Assembly: GCA_027604685.1 (NCBI GenBank) | Contig: JADHYX010000056.1 | Span: 3,075-67,074 of the forward strand | Direction of reading: 5' to 3' | DNA length: 64,000 nucleotides | Source: Lobulomyces angularis | Lineage: Eukaryota > Chytridiomycota > Chytridiomycetes > Lobulomycetales > Lobulomycetaceae | In this document: positions 1 to 58,337 of the stretch, piece by piece | Layout of the letters: every line of letters starts with the position of its first letter | Numbering within the stretch: position 1 is the first letter of the stretch | Notes under the pieces: generated by a model | Database searches by the model: none | Told to the model about the DNA's origin: nothing | What the model saw: the letters and a program-made list of their open reading frames with translations, nothing else | Made by a program: the position numbers and the translations under genes

Positions 1-3828
<3,828 letters not shown>

Positions 3829-13429: not shown

Positions 13430-13904
13430 TTATTGACAAAAAGTTGTCTGAAAGTTAATGGAAGTACACATATTTTTCCAAGGTCTGCATGATCTCATTC
13501 TTGGCATATCTAAACAAAGTCTTGAGTACTTATACAAGGCAGGTGACTGTGGAAGTGAGCAATCCTTCATATCAGGCATTTGATCTTGAATAATATAGAA
13601 TAATTATTGAAGAAATAGTCAAAATGAGCTATATACCACAAGTGTCAAAAATCCCAGCAAGAGTTTGTTCAGTAGTTAAAACTTTGGCAGAACCGTCAGT
13701 ACAAAAAGCAGGCAAGCTAGCTGAATTTGCTGGACAAGCGGTAGAATAGAATTCGCATTCAGTTGAATTTGGATCTACAGTGCAACTGTTATTAAATAAA
13801 GGTACTTTATTTATTTTTCTCATTGTATTATTTAAAATGTACCTAGGATCAACTGTTGGTAAAGAAGCAGCCAGTGCAAGAAGGGTAGTAATAGTTAATT
13901 TCAT
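13430..13904 (-). CDS. Secreted Cys/Met-rich protein, single module, no anchor
   Basis: Three exons: 13843-13904, 13637-13785 and 13430-13584, 366 nt or 121 residues. The start is chosen because it gives a signal peptide (MKLTITTLLALAA) and because the first exon is 62 nt, exactly as in the paralogue at 14530-15401. The mature part has NSTECEFYSTACPA, LPAFCTDGSAKVLTT, TCGDQMPDMKDC, LYKYSRLCLDMPRMRSC and ends at FCQ. The repeated C-x-MPxM-x2-C pattern matches the neighbouring gene and the Ctr fusion at 16670-18132. It lacks the Ser/Thr-rich linker and hydrophobic tail of its paralogue and has lost the intron inside LCxDMPRM. A role as an extracellular copper-binding protein is inferred from Cys and Met spacing and from context. 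Confidence 0.8.
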
Positions 13905-14529
13905 TCTAACTATAATTTGTATTGATATATATTTGCCACAAAGGAAGCAGTAAAATTGTAGTCTTTTTATAGTTTTTTTTTTACAAAAAGATCGCAATTA
14001 TGCGGGAATGGTTCTGTCACTGACTCATTTCGCCATTAATGATAATAAGGTAAACAAGAAAGGAAAAATATATAGCAAAAAAACCAAAAAAAATAAGCAC
14101 CCCAAATTCTTTAATTTAATTAATTTTAACCACGTAATATTTTGATTTTTCATATTACCCAACTGAGAAAGACGCGCAAAAATTGCTCAATGTTACTTTT
14201 TTTCAGTAAAAGATAGGGTTTATGTAATCAGTGTTCATGTTTACTTCCCCTATATTATTCAATTTCTAACAGTAAGTGCTTCCAAACTCCAAAAAAAAAA
14301 AATTAAACAACTGGGTAATTTTTGATCAGAATTTTAAAATGTAAAAACTCATATTTTATGGGAAAGACTATTTTACGTTTATATAAGGCATTATTAATAA
14401 TCACAATATGTTTATGAACGTCATACTATGAAGATAATTTAATTTTAAAATAAACATGAAATTAATTAAATGACAAGAAAAAAAGATTTATTTAAAAACT
14501 ACGCTCTATATGAAATCTAAAAATATCAA
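13905..14529. other. Intergenic region between the Cys-rich paralogues
   Basis: About 625 bp, AT-rich. It contains the promoter of the 13430-13904 gene and the 3' end of the 14530-15401 gene. No ORF or structured RNA recognised. Confidence 0.5.
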
Positions 14530-15401
14530 CTAAATTAATACAAAAATAGCAGCTATGCTTAAAACAACTTTGAAACCTAAAGATGTTGCCCCGTTTTCAT
14601 TCAAGTTTTGCTCTTTGTATGTGGAGGCTTTAACTTCAACAGTAGGAAGAGCAGTAGCAGTTAAATAAACTGATGACGCAGTAGCAGATTTCTCTCCATC
14701 GCAACTTTCCGTTACTTCACTGACAAATGTAGTAACGGGTGGTTTAGTTTCACTGGCTCCAGTAGTTTTAGTTTCCACAGCTTTAGTTTCACTAGTTTTA
14801 GGATCAGTTGGTTGAGAGTCAACTGGTTCGCTAGTTTTAGGTTCAACAGGTTCAGAACCAGGAATTGGATCTATTCCACCACAAAATGAAGATTGTTTTC
14901 CAATTGATGCACACATGTTAACCCAAGGTTTACAAGATCCCATTCTAGGCATATCTTTTTAATGGTTTAATTCTTTTAAATAAAAATGTAATTTCTTACC
15001 AATACAAAGTCTAGAATACTTGTATAGAGCAGGTTTTGCAGGTAATGGGCAATCTTTCATTTCAGGCATTTGATCTATTTTTAAAAAAGTTCCAGTTTAA
15101 AAAATGGATTAAAAATTTATTGAACCTACCACAAGTATCGAATATTCCTGCTTCAGTTTCAGCAGTAGTCAAGATTTTAGCGGATCCATCTGTGCAAAAA
15201 GCAGGCAATTTGGCATTAGCAGGGCACGCTTTCGTAAAAAATTCACATTCAGTTGAATTTGGATCAGAGCAACTTTATTGGTTTTTTTTGTTTACAATAA
15301 ATTTTAAATTTTATTCTTTAATTGAAAGAGTTTAATTACCTAGCATGCTGTTGTGCAGTGACAACTATGGCCAAAGTAACTGTAGACAGAAAAATGTGCA
15401 T
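14530..15401 (-). CDS. Cys/Met-rich surface protein with GPI-like tail
   Basis: Four exons: 15340-15401, 15130-15272, 15000-15074 and 14530-14954, 705 nt or 234 residues. It begins with a signal peptide (MHIFLSTVTLAIVVTA). Then comes the module seen in the neighbouring gene: NSTECEFFTKACPA, LPAFCTDGSAKILTT, TCGDQMPEMKDC, YSRLCIDMPRMGSC and WVNMCASIGKQSSFC. A Pro/Thr/Ser/Lys-rich linker of about 90 residues follows, and the protein ends in a short hydrophobic segment (SLGFKVVLSIAAIFVLI) with no charged tail, as in GPI-anchored proteins. It is therefore probably an anchored copy of the same ligand-binding module. Copper is the favoured ligand because the same motif forms the ectodomain of a Ctr transporter 1.3 kb away. 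Not recognised as any named family. Confidence 0.82.
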
Positions 15402-16669
15402 CAGTGTTTTTAATATTGAAATTGAAATACAACTTAATTTTTTTTCAGAAAATTCAAACAAAATGAGAAGGAAGTATTTATTGGGTTTATATATAGTTTG
15501 GCTTGGTAATATGTATAAAAAGTTTAATGCAAAAAATGTTAAAAGGAAGATTGCGCCCTTTTTCCGGCCGACTTTTGATTTCGGGACACAATAAACAAAT
15601 AAATATATTTAAAAAAAAATTAAGAGTTTGCTGAAAATGCATACGAAATAGTCTAGTGAATTTCTAGGGAATCGTGAGTTTGTATATAAAGTTAAATAGA
15701 TGACTGTTACATATGAATAAATTAACGATCTGTTTACTTTATATTCAGAATTAACAATGTTACGAATAGGATACATGTAAAAGTTTTTTTCATGCTAAAA
15801 AAAATCAGCTGTAGATAATTCAATGTTAATTTATCTCATTTAACTAAATTTATCATCTCACAATTAGTTTTAAGAATCTTTACTTTTTCACTCTCTCAAC
15901 TCACCTTCACAATTTAATGAACATGGAGCTATAAAGAAATTGGCAGATTCGGCACATGACTTTTTATCAAAAGTCAATTAAGATTTTACAAGATTTTAAA
16001 CCAATTTTGGTTTTTGAAAACGTATTTTTAGCTTTGCGATTTTTACGCCGGAGACCTCAGCTCTCAATGTGGTTTCTTTTGTTTTTGATAAATCACAAAT
16101 GGAAAAAAATTTGAGTAATAATGAATAGTATTTTTTCTTTAACCTATTTTCTGTTCTTGCATTTTTGTTTGATAGCTGTTTTATATAAAACTTCAAGAAG
16201 TTATAGATCAAAAATAAATGAGGATTTATAATGTATATATTTTTTTTTTATTTTTTTGATTGTCAAAAATTTTGGAGTGGTCGTTTCCGTTTCACAATCA
16301 CGGAATAGGGTTGAGGTTTTTTTGCGGTAGGTATGGGAGACTTTGATAGGATCACTGTTCTATTTTATGACGAAGTTAACGAAATTAGTAGAAAACATAG
16401 TAAGTAAGGAGTTAAAATTTTTGATACTATTTTTGTAAGCTTCTCATCATGATTTTTTCAGTGTAGTAAATTGATTTACACTTTCATGATATTTTATTAT
16501 TGGAGGAGCTTGAGGCTTGTGGGTTGATGAAAATTAGGGGCAAAAAATATTTAGGATTGAGGGATTAACGCCATTTTATTCTAAAAAAAATTATAAAAAA
16601 AATCAATTTCAAATAAAATAAAACAGCAATTAGATTTTATTCAATTTTGATTAGCTCTACTCTACTTAA
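15402..16669. other. Long intergenic region, mostly featureless
   Basis: About 1.27 kb containing the divergent upstream regions of the GPI-like gene and the Ctr gene. The only coding-like signal is at 16334-16400 (+): ATG followed by GDFDRITVLFYDEVNE and a good GTAAGT donor, but no convincing second exon could be joined. Confidence 0.45.
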
Positions 16670-18132
16670 ATGAAAACAGTAACAACATCTTTTAACATTA
16701 AATTGTTAATATTTTATATCTCAGAGTTTGTATTTCAAATCCAAAATTCTGTTCTTAAGCATAGTTGCTGCTCAAAACTATCCTGACGCCAATGCTACTG
16801 CTGATATAACTCTTCTATGTGAAAGTATGCCTTTCATGGCTGGCTGCTCTGTTATGACTGCCTGCAGCGGGAAATCTGATGCATTTTGCAAACCTTTTTC
16901 TATTTTAAGTGATATTTGTGCTGCTGATATGCCCAGGTATTAAAAAATACATTTGTTAATGCAGACTTCTCTGAAATCAAACTTGATAACAAAAAAAAAT
17001 TTTTTTAACCTCAAAGAATAAAAAATTACAATTTAATTTTTTTATTATTTACAACAAATTAACATTCTCAACATGCAACATTAATTTTAAATTTAATGTT
17101 ATTTTAGGATGAACGATTGTACAAATTATCGTGTAAGATGTAATATCACAGGCACTGGTGATAAAAATGTTCCTGCAAATCCAATTGCTCTCTTAGGAAA
17201 TACAAATGATGCTCAGTGTAAGAGTGAGCTTCCTCTTCCTAGTTTACCAAGTTCAAAATCGTTAAGCTCTCAGGTCTCCTCCATTTGTTCAGAAATGAAT
17301 ATGGTACAATTTAACCCAACACTTTTTAATTAATTTCAAAATTAAATTTTAATATCAATTATAGTCTGGTTGTGAAAAATGCAAAAATACAGGGTCCACT
17401 TATATGGATTGTAATTTGCTTGAGGTTTATAGCTTTCTTTGTAAATCCATGCCTGATATGAAGCAGTGTGGTGAATGGAAATCTTTATGCGCTGCAACGC
17501 CGACTTTGTCGTTTTGTCCCAGTAGCTCTGGATCTGAAGAGTCGGAAGGTCCTCCTGCTATGAAAATGTTTTTTCATTCTGGTTTTGCTGATTATGTGTT
17601 ATTTGAAAGTAAATACAAAAAATTAGTCCTATCATTTATTCTTCTAACTTTTACAGAATGGGTTCCCAGAAACGCTTTGCAGTACTGGTTGAGTAACTTG
17701 GCTCTCTTCGTCTTGGCAATATTTTACGAAGGGTTATCGACCTACCTAATACTACTGGAAGCAAAATGGTCAAAATTCAATAAAGCTGCTGCATGCTATC
17801 CCTACAGATTATCAAGTAACAAGCTAAATTCTTGTTAAGTTAATATGTTTTTTTTCATTGATGTAGCAGCGGCTGGGTTTCCATCATCTTCTTCATCAAC
17901 TTTTCCTCATTCTGGAATTCGTATCGCTTTAACAAGATTTTTGTTTAAATTCGTGTTAACAACCCTAGGCTATGCTCTGATGTTAGTCACAATGACTTTT
18001 AATATTGCAATGTACTTTTCAGTAGTTCTTGGATTTGCCTTTGGCACTTTAATTTTTGGTGGTTTAAGCAAGAGAACTAGAATGGAGTCAACTTCAGATC
18101 CCGCTGAAGAAAAAATTTCTGCTTGCTGTTAA
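16670..18132 (+). CDS. Ctr-family copper transporter with Cys/Met-rich ectodomain
   Basis: Six exons: 16670-16678, 16725-16936, 17108-17303, 17365-17608, 17657-17815 and 17867-18132, 361 residues. The first exon is only 9 nt; splicing it gives a signal peptide (MKTSLYFKSKILFLSIVAAQ). The ectodomain carries three Cys/Met repeats: LCESMPFMAGC, ICAADMPRMNDC and LCKSMPDMKQC. The C-terminal part is a Ctr domain. It has MKMFFHSGF before TM1 (LALFVLAIFYEGLS), an MxxxM in TM2 (YALMLVTMTFNIAMYF) and a small-residue TM3 (VVLGFAFGTLIFGG). The tail ends ISACC, resembling the Cys-containing tails of Ctr proteins. Ctr proteins form trimers that import Cu(I) across the plasma membrane. The ectodomain probably gathers Cu(I) for the pore (inference). 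It shares the module with the two proteins at 13430-15401. Confidence 0.92.
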
Positions 18133-18474: not shown

Positions 18475-20649
18475 TTAGTCATTACCACCTGAACCTCTAT
18501 TTATAGTATGAATATAAAAACTTCCTCCCTCACTCATCCAGCTGCAGCTATCTCGACCGAATATAAATTCTTGGCAGTTTAAGATTGAATTTATGCTGTT
18601 GCTGTCACTAATTTTTCTCTTTTTTTCACCAACTGGAACAAAACTTCGTAAACTCACAATTTTACAGGTTGATTTTAAATCCAAGAATTTTTGCAATATA
18701 CTGTTGTTTAAATTTGGATCAAAGATATAACTAAAAAATACAAATTAAAACAAAATATTTTAGTATATTCTATTAAATTACTTATTTACAAAAACTACGT
18801 CAGCAACTTTCATTATATCATCTACTTTTTTAGAATTCAGAAAATCCTTTTAAAAAAAATATTCGTATAAAATAATTTCAGCCTTTTATTTTCATAGTAT
18901 ATTTTTTTTAATATATTACTGCTTTGAATAAATCGATTTTTCCATGAGGCCTTGCATAAAATTTCATTCTTGTTTCGAATTCTTTTTGTTGAGCTAATGC
19001 TAATTTTGAGGTATTTTCCCTATATTTGAAGAATATAAATATATAATTAGCCTTATTCACTTTTTTATTACAAAATTTCAACGCCATAAGAATCGCACAT
19101 ACACTGAGCACTTATTTGAAGGACAACATTGCCGATTCCAGATCCCTACAATATATATGTCTTTATTAGAAAAAATTTAAATTAGTGGTTACCATATCCA
19201 GAAAAACCTGGCCTTTTTTTATTTGGCACTGGTTAATCAATTGATTTACAAATTTAGGCTTAATTTCTCCGTATACATTATTGGAAAAACCACTTTGTTT
19301 TAAAAGATTATAATTAGGAGATATTGCTCGAGCATAACTTTGTTCCAACACGTGCGATACGAATTCAAATTGTTCGGCAGAATTAAAATAATCTTCATCA
19401 AAATTTGGTGTCGATTTGTTAAATTCTTCATCCAGATTTTCTACTCCTCCATTATTGAGAAATTCTTTGAATTCAGGTGTATTTTTTACTTGTTTCAAAG
19501 TTGAATTAAATTCTTCCACAGCTAATTTAAGATCTTTCGGAAGTTTTTTATTTAATGCCTTTATGCATTTTCTGATACCATTTATAAAATAGAATTCTTT
19601 CAATTAATAAATACCTGATGATACCCACTTTGGAATCACCAAATTTTTCTTGCAAAGATCTGGGAATTGAAGTTTTTGCTATTTGTTGTATGCTGTCCCT
19701 TATGTCCAAGCAAGGATTATAGTCATCTGGATCCTTCGGAAGGATTAAGGGAAATCTAGAAAATAATTTAACTGAGAAGGTAATACTACACAAACTTTAC
19801 TTTTCAGTTAGGTTTGTTCCTGGATAACACAAGTAAACCGTAATTAATTCATATTTCAAAAGCTGCTTATCATTTGTGTTATACTTTATTTGAGTTCCTA
19901 GCAATAAATAATCATCCTGATATTTCAAGCAAATGTCTTCACTCTGAATAAATTTTAAATCAATTTCTTCACTCCTCTCAAAATAAATTTTTTTTTTTTT
20001 TTTAATGTTTTTAATCTTCTTTTTTGCGAGAGTTTCCTCAAGGTCAAATTTTTCGTCCAATAAAACTTTTTGCACTGAAGTATATTTTTTTACTAAACTT
20101 TTTGAAGTAGCAGGTACAGTTATACTTTCACTTGAACTTTGTTCTCCTAACTTCATTAATTTTTTTATTTTTAAATCTTTCATCAAATTCTTTTTTATTT
20201 CGAATTTTTCAATATTTGATTTAGGGTTATCATTATCGTTCAACACATTTTTACTAACAGCTTTTTTGTTAATTGTTATACTTTTTTCATAGGCTGAATC
20301 AGTAGGTGAAATCTGTTTGATACTAAAATTGTCTTCACTGTAAGAGTTATGCTGATATGCTTCGCTTTGGATAGACACAGGATTTTCAGCTGTTTTATGT
20401 ATTGTATAAAAAAGCTGAGTGCATTTCAAAAATCTTACCTTTAATTTTTGATTCTTTGTAAATTACGCTGCCATAAGAGGAAGAATAATTATTATCCGAA
20501 TCAACGTTTTTTAACGTTGATTTAAATTTTTTATTTTTTTCTTCACTTTGATTTTTTTCAACAACAGGTAAGACTCGTTTGTAAAATACTCTTTCACTTA
20601 GAAAGTCTAGTTTTGATTCATTCTTTATTCTAGTGTGTTTTTTTAACAT
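18475..20649 (-). CDS. DOT1: DOT1-type histone H3-K79 methyltransferase
   Basis: Eight exons: 20439-20649, 19801-20389, 19615-19755, 19193-19571, 19072-19145, 18920-19019, 18782-18846 and 18475-18730, 1815 nt or 604 residues, all in phase. The N-terminal ~270 residues are Lys/Ser-rich and of low complexity, as in fungal Dot1, and probably contact nucleosomes or DNA. The catalytic domain is at the C-terminus. YGEIKPKFVNQLINQ leads into the SAM-binding loop LDMGSGIGNVVLQ (usually LGSGVGN), then GVEILENTSKLA, ADVVFVNNYIFDPNLN and KIVSLRSFVP. These blocks are diagnostic of the family, which methylates Lys79 in the histone H3 core and acts in the nucleus in silencing and checkpoint control. Confidence 0.95.
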
Positions 20650-27954: not shown

Positions 27955-28743
27955 ATGGGTTGTTCTCCTTCTAAAAATGCTCGAAAAGAATTAAACCTCT
28001 ATTTAGATTACAAAGCAAATGATGAGAAAATTGTAGATACAAAAATTGATGAAAATATCCTGAAAGTATGAAGACTGTAAAATATTATTTTAATAATGCA
28101 TATTTTTTTTACATAATTAGATTTTTAATAAAATTGATATAAACAAGAGTGGTATTTATTATCAGATTTTATTTTCCTTTATATTCAAATAATATAGGAA
28201 ACATATCATTAAGTGAGGTTGATTTCGTAATAAATGATATTTTACCAGGACTTAACATTGATAGAAAAACTGTGGCCCTGGCTTACAAGGCTGCTGATGT
28301 TGACCAATCTGGTCAAATTGAGCTAAATGAATTTAAGAGGTATATTACAGTTAAAATAAAAATTAAATTAAGAAGTACCATTTTGGTTGAAATTTGAGAT
28401 TAATGCAATTACTGCAAATATATTCAAAATTTAATAAGTTATTTGAAAAATTAGATAAAAATCATGATAAAAAAATAAGTTTTGAAGAATTTAAAGAAGG
28501 TAATTTTAATTTTCGGTAAACATTAAAAAATTGATAATTATAGGTCACAAAATTATTGGAATGAAGTCTACAAACAACGAAAAATTGAAGCAAGAATACA
28601 AAATAATTGATGAAGATAACAGTGGATACATACAGTTTGACGAGGTACACTAAAAACAATTTTAAAAAATGTAACACCCTTTTTTTCAGCTTTGTTTATA
28701 TTTGGCAAAGAAGTATTATGTTGAAGCCCAAATATCCCTTTAA
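27955..28743 (+). CDS. N-myristoylated EF-hand protein, calflagin-like
   Basis: Six exons: 27955-28065, 28121-28151, 28198-28339, 28399-28499, 28544-28644 and 28690-28743, 540 nt or 179 residues. It starts MGCSPSKNARKE, a typical N-myristoylation plus palmitoylation signal. Four EF-hand loops are visible: DINKSGNISLSE, DVDQSGQIELNE, DKNHDKKISFEE and DEDNSGYIQFDE, all with acidic positions 1 and 12 suited to Ca2+ binding. Length, acylated N-terminus and four EF-hands recall the flagellar calcium-binding proteins (calflagins) of protists, which attach to the flagellar membrane. Any neuronal-calcium-sensor-like protein would share these traits, so the flagellar role is inference, helped by the adjacent UBE2U/CCDC87 pair. 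Confidence 0.88.
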
Positions 28744-53414: not shown

Positions 53415-54325
53415 TTAACAGTTGCATGAATTTTTCATGACTTTAGAAGCAGCAGCGCCAACAGAATTTAGTGAAATTGCAGCAACAGTTTCCTTTTCCT
53501 TGATATCATTGTCCTAAAACATTACTCGTGAGTAATTACTTGCGAAATTATTTTACCAGTGAATCTATCAGTCTAACTTTAATCTCCTTAGCAAGGGTAA
53601 GAAATGCTTCTTCCACCGCTTTAAAACATTGCAATAGAGTTGGATAATATTGTTAAATTTTGCTGCAATTTTTTTATACCTATATCGGATTTAGCACTCG
53701 TTTCTAAAAATTTTATATTATAAGTGTCTGCTAATCGTTGACCCTGCTCTTTTGAGACATGCTTTTCTTCTAGTAGATCGCACTTGTTACCAATTAACCT
53801 AGACACAAAAATTTTTTTTAAGAAGTTCATCTCAGTAAAGTTATATTACATTCTGCAAAGATCTCCGTTGGTATTTTTTTCTATCTGCCGCATCCAATTA
53901 TCTATATCTTTTCAAATGTTTATTTCAAAATTTGAAATCTAAATTTGCTACATACTATTAAAAGTTTTTATATCTGTAACATCATACGTAACTAGCACTC
54001 CCATCGCACTTCTATAATATGCCCTTGTAACATTCTTTTATTAAGAAATCATTTTGTGAAGGTAAAAAGTTTGCTTAACAGTAATTTCTACCTGAAATCT
54101 TTCTTGACCAGCTGTATCCCATATCTGCAGTTTAATTTTTTTTCCATCTAATTCGATGGTCTTGATTTTGTAATCAATGCCAATGGTAGTAATAAAACTT
54201 GGGGTAAAAGTATCATCACAGAACCTTAAAAGCAAGCTAGACTTTCCAGTGTTTGAATCACCAACTATTAATAATTTGAATAAATAGTCATAAGTAGAAC
54301 TTCTACTGGGATTAGGTGAAAACAT
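53415..54325 (-). CDS. Rab-family GTPase ending CNC
   Basis: Multi-exon gene from [19 protein letters not shown] at 54325 to TAA at 53415. Nucleotide-binding boxes are complete: G1 GDSNTGKSS (usually GDSGVGKS), switch [11 protein letters not shown]3 WDTAGQERF followed after an intron by [13 protein letters not shown]4 GNKCDL and G5 ETSAKS. The C-terminus KVMKNSCNC carries a C-x-C geranylgeranylation signal, so the protein is membrane-anchored. It is a close but diverged paralogue of the neighbour at 54669-55586, in tandem and the same orientation; both are Rab1/Rab8-like. The Asn-Thr in the P-loop and the QNVTR after G3 are unusual for Sec4/Ypt1 and suggest divergence after duplication. Confidence 0.9.
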
Positions 54326-54668
54326 TAAAGTGTAAGAAATTTAACTAAAAAATGAACCAAAAAAAAATTTTTAAGTTGAATGCACAAAGCGAAAATTGGA
54401 TACTATTTAGTAACAAATGAAGTAAATCATTTTCTCCACATATTGGACATTTAATTAATTATTTCTATTTGTCGAAAAAGATTATTTTATATTTATTAGA
54501 ATACAAAACTATTTCCTCCTTAATAACTCAATAAAAATTTTTTTTTTTAAAAATTATGAATACTTAAATATTTGAAGTCTAAAAACGTAGAATATGATTG
54601 AAAACATTTTTCCAAACTGAAAAACAATATAAATATTATTTTGAAGAAAAGTAAAGGAACATAAATTC
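54326..54668. other. Intergenic region between tandem Rab genes
   Basis: About 340 bp; AT-rich with T-runs. It should hold the promoter of the 53415-54325 Rab gene and the 3' end of the next; no elements recognised. Confidence 0.6.
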
Positions 54669-56605
<1,937 letters not shown>

Positions 56606-58337
56606 ATGGTCAAACGAATAGTTCTTAATCTTCTCTCAATTCTAATCCTCACAATAACCTCTGCAACCCCTGTCGACAATCAACCAACCTCCAACATATG
56701 TGATCCTTCCTCCTTAAATAAAATTTCAAATCAGTTCACAAAAGAGTGTGTCAATGGATGCTGCTTAATAGATGTAGATGACATTGATTGCCATAAAGAC
56801 TGCTACAAGCTTACAAACTATAATGATAATCAATCATCTGAGGAAAATAATGATAAATCAGTGGAGTCCAACACTGAACATAAACCAAAAGAAAAAAATC
56901 ATAATTCTGATGAATGTATAGAAATTCACAGTGCTTCTGCTTGTGCTCCTTGGCAAAGCGGTTATTATATAAATAAAACCGAGCTTTCTTTAGTTTATGG
57001 GCAAAAAATCAATTCTGAAGAAGACTGGGATGAATATGTTTATAGTGCAACCTCTGGTGGTGAGGAATTGTATATTACTTTTATAACTTTTAAAATCTTT
57101 TAAAGGTGAATATCAAGCAAATCTCTGGAACGACTGGGCCAGATGTATAAATTATAACGGAGAATCTATTCAGTATTCTAGAACCTATACATGTTTAACT
57201 GACATCTTTTTATTTTCATCTGGTTGTAACAAACAGGTAAGAGGTACATACTTTTTTATTATTTACTATAGAAAAAATAGGCTCCAAAACCATCTCCTTG
57301 TCCAGATTTTTGTGAAGTTTATGGAAAAGCAGTTGAAACTTTACTTTCAGATGACGGGGCTTGCCCAAATGTTGAAGATGTTGTTGAAGATGAAGAAGAA
57401 TACAGAATTGTGGAAAGCCGCAGATCAATTTTGGCTTCAGCAGCCTTAGGATGCAAAGATATTTTACACAGTTGGTCAAGTGGTAAATATGAAGGAAAGG
57501 TTAGTAAGCAAGGTTTTACATCTGGTGGTTATGCAGAAGATTTCAAAGAAAATGTTTATTTTACCGAAGCCACTTGCCCAAAAGATAAATTTATTGTTGG
57601 TGTAGATGAGGACGCCCATTATTGTGGTAGACTTTATTGTAAAATTTTTATTAATTATTTTTTTGTAAGGATTTGGTGGAAATTTAGATGCAGCAGAAGA
57701 ATATTGCAGTGATTTTGAAAATGCACCATGTTGTAAAAATTTAAAAAATACTAGCAGTAAATCTTCTTCAGAAAAAACTGAAGAAGAGGATGAAAAGAAA
57801 CAAGAAAACAATGGAAATAAGCAAAAAAACTTAAAATTATCCCAAGGTGCCGAAAAAGTCCAGGAATTGAATTCAGAAAATTTAAGTTCAGATCAGCAAA
57901 ACGGCCAACCAGCTTCAAGTAATTCAGGAGGAGACAATACTGGTGCAATAGTAGCAGGAACGCTAGGTTCAGTGGGAATGGTTGGATTAATTATTGGAGC
58001 AACATTGGTAGTGAGAAGAAAGAAATCAAGTAGTGCAGGTAGTGGTTATCAATCACCTACAAAAGTCGGAATGACTTCAAGTAAAAAACCTAAAACAATT
58101 TTAAATGAAAGATTTCCAGTGGTACATGAATATCATCAATCTCTGCCAGATGAGGTAAATATCAAGAGAAAAAATGAATTTTATCACTAAACAATAAATT
58201 AGGTGGAGCTAAGAAAAGGAGATATAGTGGAACTTATAAGTTCTTATGACGATGGTTGGGCGAAAGGTAGAAATATCACTACTGGGTTAGAAGGAACATT
58301 TCCTCTTGCATGCTTAAAAAAAAAAGGAAAAAAATAA
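56606..58337 (+). CDS. Cys-rich single-pass membrane protein with cytoplasmic SH3 domain
   Basis: Five exons: 56606-57059, 57106-57236, 57281-57626, 57670-58154 and 58203-58337, 1551 nt or 516 residues. Signal peptide (LNLLSILILTITSATP), then an ectodomain of about 390 residues with many cysteines (ECVNGCCLIDVDDIDCHKDC, CNKQ, CPDFCEVYG, ATCPKD, HYCG, APCCKN) and a low-complexity stalk. A single membrane helix follows (GAIVAGTLGSVGMVGLIIGA) with a basic stop-transfer RRKK. The last ~60 residues form an SH3 domain: FPVVHEYHQSLPDE, VELRKGDIVELI, DDGWAKGRN and LEGTFPLACL, including ALYDY-like, WAKG and P positions. Architecture resembles fungal single-pass SH3 proteins such as Fus1-like or sensor proteins that tie the surface to actin or signalling modules. 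The ectodomain family is not recognised. Confidence 0.87.

Follow-up and report, generated by a model that had tools for sequence, protein, structure and literature searches.

A 64,000-nt window of the Lobulomyces angularis genome contains three neighboring genes, here called A, B, and C (13430-18132), that carry one Cys- and Met-rich module in three formats: alone in a secreted-type protein (A), followed by a linker and a glycosylphosphatidylinositol (GPI)-like C-terminus (B), and as the ectodomain of a Ctr copper importer (C). Our best explanation of the locus, which we hold with moderate confidence, is that C is an importer of the CTRA-CTR kind and that A and B gather extracellular Cu(I) and raise its supply to C. 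The window is part of a 20.8-Mb assembly of 533 contigs and lies on the contig that we designate C56. A preliminary description, made from the sequence of the window alone, had proposed the three genes and their common repeat.

A Cys-Met module in three formats

A and B each hold two copies of the pattern C-x(2-4)-MPxM-x2-C, and C holds three (at C35, C68, and C165). We scored A and B with a profile of Ctr ectodomains built from 47 of the 49 Ctr relatives P0002-P0050; P0037 and P0043, whose ectodomains are shorter than 90 amino acids (aa), were dropped. A reached 46.4 bits and B 43.3 bits. For each protein we also scored 2000 shuffles of each of three kinds (full, Cys-fixed, and Cys-and-Met-fixed), and none matched the score of the real protein (0/2000 in every case), the highest being 26.9 bits with all Cys and Met kept in place. 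Because the profile scores exceed all of these controls, the module common to A, B, and the Ctr ectodomains reflects true homology and not chance, and the proposal of one repeat module in three formats holds. A 30-base DNA form of the motif was found at four places in the 20.8-Mb genome, three in this locus and one in a further gene, D, on contig C40; a reversed control pattern was found once.

In the profile alignment, A and B pair with the second half of the Ctr ectodomain. A profile of the second CTRA half gave 41.8, 38.0, and 41.7 bits for A, B, and D, compared to 21.4, 21.9, and 23.6 bits with the first-half profile. In its N-terminal part, each of A and B carries a half-repeat whose Cys are similarly spaced and which has no Met. 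The strict motif CxxMxxMxxC-x5/6-C is matched twice by C (at C35 and C165, with variants at C68 and C134) and once each by A, B, and D. The modules of A and B are identical at 76 of 99 aligned residues, and when D is added, all 10 Cys columns and five of six Met columns are invariant, as are 44 of the 99 ungapped columns overall. A Cys pair corresponding to C145/C155 of C, each at least 90% conserved in Ctr proteins, is absent together from A, B, and D; lacking this pair, the three are referred to here as CTRA-like relatives and not as standard CTRA domains.

All three genes at the locus are spliced with GT-AG introns, and the models give the same outer coordinates as those first proposed. Gene A (13430-13904, minus strand; exons 13843-13904, 13637-13785, and 13430-13584) encodes 121 aa and was assigned from its spliced model, homology, and hydropathy. 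As judged by hydropathy, its N-terminus is hydrophobic and its C-terminus is not (-0.45 over the last 20 residues); A appears to be a secreted stand-alone Cys-Met protein without membrane helices, a format like that of Chlamydomonas CTR3. Gene B (14530-15401, minus strand; exons 15340-15401, 15130-15272, 15000-15074, and 14530-14954) encodes 234 aa, in which the stand-alone module is followed by a linker with 27 Ser/Thr in 95 residues and a hydrophobic end (mean hydropathy 2.08 over the last 20 residues). The tails of B and D (1.72) are GPI-like, and both proteins fit the signal peptide, Ser/Thr linker, and hydrophobic C-terminus of a GPI-anchored protein by composition only; GPI anchoring is putative for both.

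Gene C (16670-18132, plus strand; exons 16670-16678, 16725-16936, 17108-17303, 17365-17608, 17657-17815, and 17867-18132) encodes 361 aa. Its ectodomain, residues 21-204, holds two CTRA repeats and is encoded by the coding parts of exons 2-4 (16776-17559, plus strand). B and C are divergent, with B starting on the minus side and C on the plus side of a 1268-bp intergenic region (15402-16669), and the starts of B and A lie about 1.3 kb and 2.8 kb from that of C.

C is identical to the deposited L. angularis protein HDU92_006868 (361 aa), and A is identical to HK099_001561 of Clydaea vesicula. B has the same residue as HK099_001560 of C. vesicula at 232 of 234 positions and differs at two. The two Clydaea proteins are consecutively numbered, and both genera belong to the Lobulomycetales (Chytridiomycota). 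We note that across 13430-18132 the proteins deposited under the two names are 99-100% identical; the assemblies may come from very close organisms, or one may be mislabelled. On the other side of C, an exon of a DOT1 histone methyltransferase adjoins the gene on the opposite strand (19169-19603, minus), and we saw no link between it and copper.

The importer and its family

C scores 77.1 bits against PF04145, the Ctr copper transporter family (curated cut-off 25.3). Three membrane helices with the Ctr1 fold were found, together with the Ctr signatures M205-x-M207 before the first, M312-x3-M316 in the second, and G329-x3-G333 in the third. In a set of 50 sequences, each of these Met and Gly positions is either invariant or conserved in 90% or more, in agreement with the initial claim of a Ctr protein with all Met motifs intact. 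By these sequence features, C is a member of the Ctr family and of its CTRA-CTR kind. In the AlphaFold2 model of C, 15 of the 17 ten-residue blocks across residues 21-190 have a predicted local distance difference test score (pLDDT) of at least 89. Three of the four Cys-Met motifs sit at helix-turn-helix points (H24-37/H42-49, H60-71/H76-85, and H157-167/H172-183); these form Met-bearing helical hairpins, and the fourth motif of the ectodomain is looser.

With C as the query, 50 proteins (C included) were found at E-values up to 0.001 among 2561 candidates. The module was not found mainly outside a Ctr context: 48 of the 50 match PF04145, in a set where a query with C favors Ctr proteins. At least one strict motif is present in 50/50 of P0001-P0050, a set chosen for its similarity to C. 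Among the named sources are Lobulomycetales, Fimicolochytrium, Geranomyces, Spizellomyces, Synchytrium, Entophlyctis, many Mortierella-group fungi, and Calcarisporiella; one record is labelled Picre1, which from its label we take to be the green alga Picrochlorum. P0047 carries the name of a Frizzled cysteine-rich domain from its source; the 50 members together matched 20 families at E-values up to 1, and FZ was not one of them.

The strict motif is reportedly the Cys-Met motif published by Page in 2009 for Chlamydomonas CTR1 and CTR2 and later named CTRA. Given that the fusion is widespread and, by this definition, its motif already published, the Ctr fusion is known in kind and is not a local invention. 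The 2024 abstract by Strenkert is said to propose that algae took the CTRA domain from an ancient chytrid. By the same definition, CTR1 and CTR2 (CTRA-CTR; Page 2009, Strenkert 2024) resemble C in joining a Ctr membrane domain to a Cys-Met ectodomain. C differs as a chytrid member, and those accounts are not known to include either stand-alone modules beside the importer or a GPI-like format.

Searching the genome for Ctr-family proteins gave matches on C56 (gene C), C87, C533, and C31, with all five candidates scored. The gene on C87 (L025, about 1530-3125) is a second CTRA-Ctr whose first Cys-Met motif lacks Mets (CTSNSAIVGC) and whose pore MX3M is retained.

Stand-alone genes and their history

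A and B had been described as tandem duplicates with identical 62-nt first exons and matching intron phases. The duplication is supported by a tree of 59 module halves, in which the two are sisters (100/88). Their first exons share the length of 62 nt and not the sequence (25/62 bases match position by position); introns 1 and 2 agree in position and phase, and a third intron occurs in B only. From a reading of the models, C has no intron position in common with either gene.

With the B module as the query, the window's own genome yielded A, B, and gene D, and with D as the query it yielded A, B, and D plus a weak match to C; both results are lower bounds. In our model of D, which was spliced by eye, a hydrophobic N-terminus precedes ten Cys that match those of A and B, a linker rich in Ser, Thr, and Ala, and a hydrophobic C-terminus. 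Intron 1 of D falls immediately ahead of the first Cys, at a position and phase shared with A and B. In the tree, D joins A and B (97/91), and all three stand apart from C's own halves.

We also searched for short forms of about 80-254 aa; the seeds were A, the first 145 residues of B, and the second half of each of 16 Ctr proteins (C plus 15 of its 49 relatives). Among 286 candidates, five proteins were returned: A, B, two metagenome proteins, and P0055, also from a metagenome and of unclear nature. The two metagenome short forms run into the Ctr pre-membrane motif MKMYFHTG and then stop, and they are probably cut-off Ctr gene models with missed introns. This aimed search likewise did not place the module mainly in unrelated contexts. 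It depends on shared words and annotated proteins and did not return gene D, so further stand-alone forms can exist. Our searches of the open-licence literature returned no paper on stand-alone CTRA proteins in fungi; as far as our searches reach, a stand-alone, partly GPI-like CTRA-like set (A, B, and D) in a chytrid is new here.

A segmental duplication may underlie this set. The window and C40 share further paralogue pairs, including an apparently secreted, Cys-rich protein for which two copies were found in the genome, one in the window (56546-58187, plus strand) and one on C40 (L024, 1332-2930, minus strand), about 1.8 kb from gene D. Neither copy matches Pfam over its cut-off. Other pairs join 28194-28501 and 54092-55586 of the window to 28428-28721 and 31295-32044 of C40; they include exons that we take from their sequence to be Rab GTPase-like, with up to 100% identity over 80 aa, and conserved families of this sort can match by themselves. 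On the basis of the shared pairs, we propose that D and the ancestor of A and B split by segmental duplication with rearrangement, after which A and B arose in tandem, a history that the data suggest.

Proposed copper capture and its alternatives

In our preferred reading, most copies of the Cys-Met motif would mark the turn in a short helical hairpin. Five disulphides most likely join the ten Cys of the stand-alone module, and they would serve as a scaffold and leave the paired Mets as Cu(I) thioether ligands. Disulphides fit the joint loss of the C145/C155 pair in A, B, and D and the even Cys number in 37 of the 49 ectodomains examined. At the importer, the MKM motif and the pore filter MX3M would lie below an ectodomain that concentrates Cu(I). 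The most likely role of A, as a diffusible protein, and of B, held at the wall or membrane, would be to bind extracellular Cu(I) and increase its availability to C.

Published accounts offer partial precedents. In Ctr1, the MX3M methionines bind Cu(I), and the N-terminal metal-binding part raises the transport rate (PMC6437178). The Salmo salar Ctr1 structures (PDB 6m97 and 6m98) offer no counterpart of the CTRA ectodomain, because in the crystallized construct the extracellular N-terminal domain was largely deleted (PMC6437178). In Cryptococcus, Ctr1 has a GPI-anchored copper protein, Cbi1/Bim1, as an interaction partner, and this partner is proposed to supply it with copper (PMC9258870); in format and proposed role, Cbi1/Bim1 resembles B, whose own GPI anchor is putative. 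The protein itself is different: Cbi1 shows limited homology to lytic polysaccharide monooxygenases, and its copper site is a histidine brace (PMC9258870), whereas B has a Cys-Met module and matches no Pfam family at E-values up to 1. At the sequence level, B was not recognized as a monooxygenase-like protein of the Cbi1/Bim1 type. By analogy, A and B could plausibly capture copper and pass it to C.

The nearest format to A is that of Chlamydomonas CTR3, a stand-alone Cys-Met protein related to CTRA-CTR. CTR3 is reportedly a soluble CTR2 paralogue without membrane helices and is described as a copy of CTR2. A, B, and D differ in forming their own clade apart from C, in having one Cys pair fewer, and, in two of the three, in the GPI-like tail. 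We also entertain, as a less likely possibility, a one-module copper relay in which free and surface-anchored CTRA-like proteins would take up Cu(I) outside the cell and pass it from module to like module, on to the matching domain of the importer. Such a relay would be a single-domain equivalent of the Cbi1-Ctr1 pair of Cryptococcus.

Several observations weigh against copper supply by A and B. Loss of ctr3 in Chlamydomonas is said to have no phenotype in the conditions tested. D's contig gave no match in the genome Ctr-family search, so linkage of a stand-alone gene to Ctr is not a rule, and A and B may lie beside C simply through descent from a local duplication. The structural model of B is moderate, with ten-residue pLDDT means of 65-87 across the module. 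The Cys number is odd in 12 of the 49 ectodomains, and B holds an eleventh Cys, which leaves room for free thiols. Unlike the profile result, which favors the second half, the tree puts the stand-alone clade nearer the first halves (90/76), on long branches; as the tree rests on 104 columns and its branches are very long, its deeper order is not interpreted. Finally, a scan upstream of A, B/C, D, and the second CTRA-Ctr gave no clear case of a known fungal copper element, and none clearly exceeds expectation in the 1268-bp region between B and C.

One alternative is protection from excess copper: A, B, and D would bind the metal by extracellular buffering or sequestration and would not feed the importer. 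The same ligand-rich module would serve this role, a secreted or surface-held protein could act as a sponge as readily as a feeder, and the promoter scan gave no sign of a starvation response. However, the module's recurrent partner elsewhere is an importer (in 48/50 of the proteins found with C), and two of the three stand-alone genes found, A and B, adjoin an importer gene. We consider shielding unlikely, if worth weighing.

A role apart from copper handling we also regard as rather improbable. Here, A, B, and D would have turned into wall or adhesion proteins rich in disulphides, or into partners of C that join it in an assembly or regulate it by contacts between modules. The distance of the stand-alone clade from the Ctr modules in the tree, the loss of the proline from D's second motif, and the half-repeat of A and B, which keeps its Cys spacing and has no Met, are consistent with such a change, but both Met pairs are fixed in A, B, and D while 55 of the 99 ungapped columns vary. 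That A and B are functionless local debris of a partial duplication of C is highly improbable: they adjoin C and match part of it, but their spliced frames are deposited for another assembly, they share no introns with C, three diverged paralogues keep all ten Cys, and the stand-alone clade is not nested with C's own halves (in a weak tree).

To our knowledge, extracellular copper collection in early-diverging fungi is little studied. If A and B do feed the importer, the locus would provide a small system in which to test how copper moves from a ligand outside the cell to an importer, with the same domain on donor and acceptor. It would then also bear on the origin of the copper importers of green algae.

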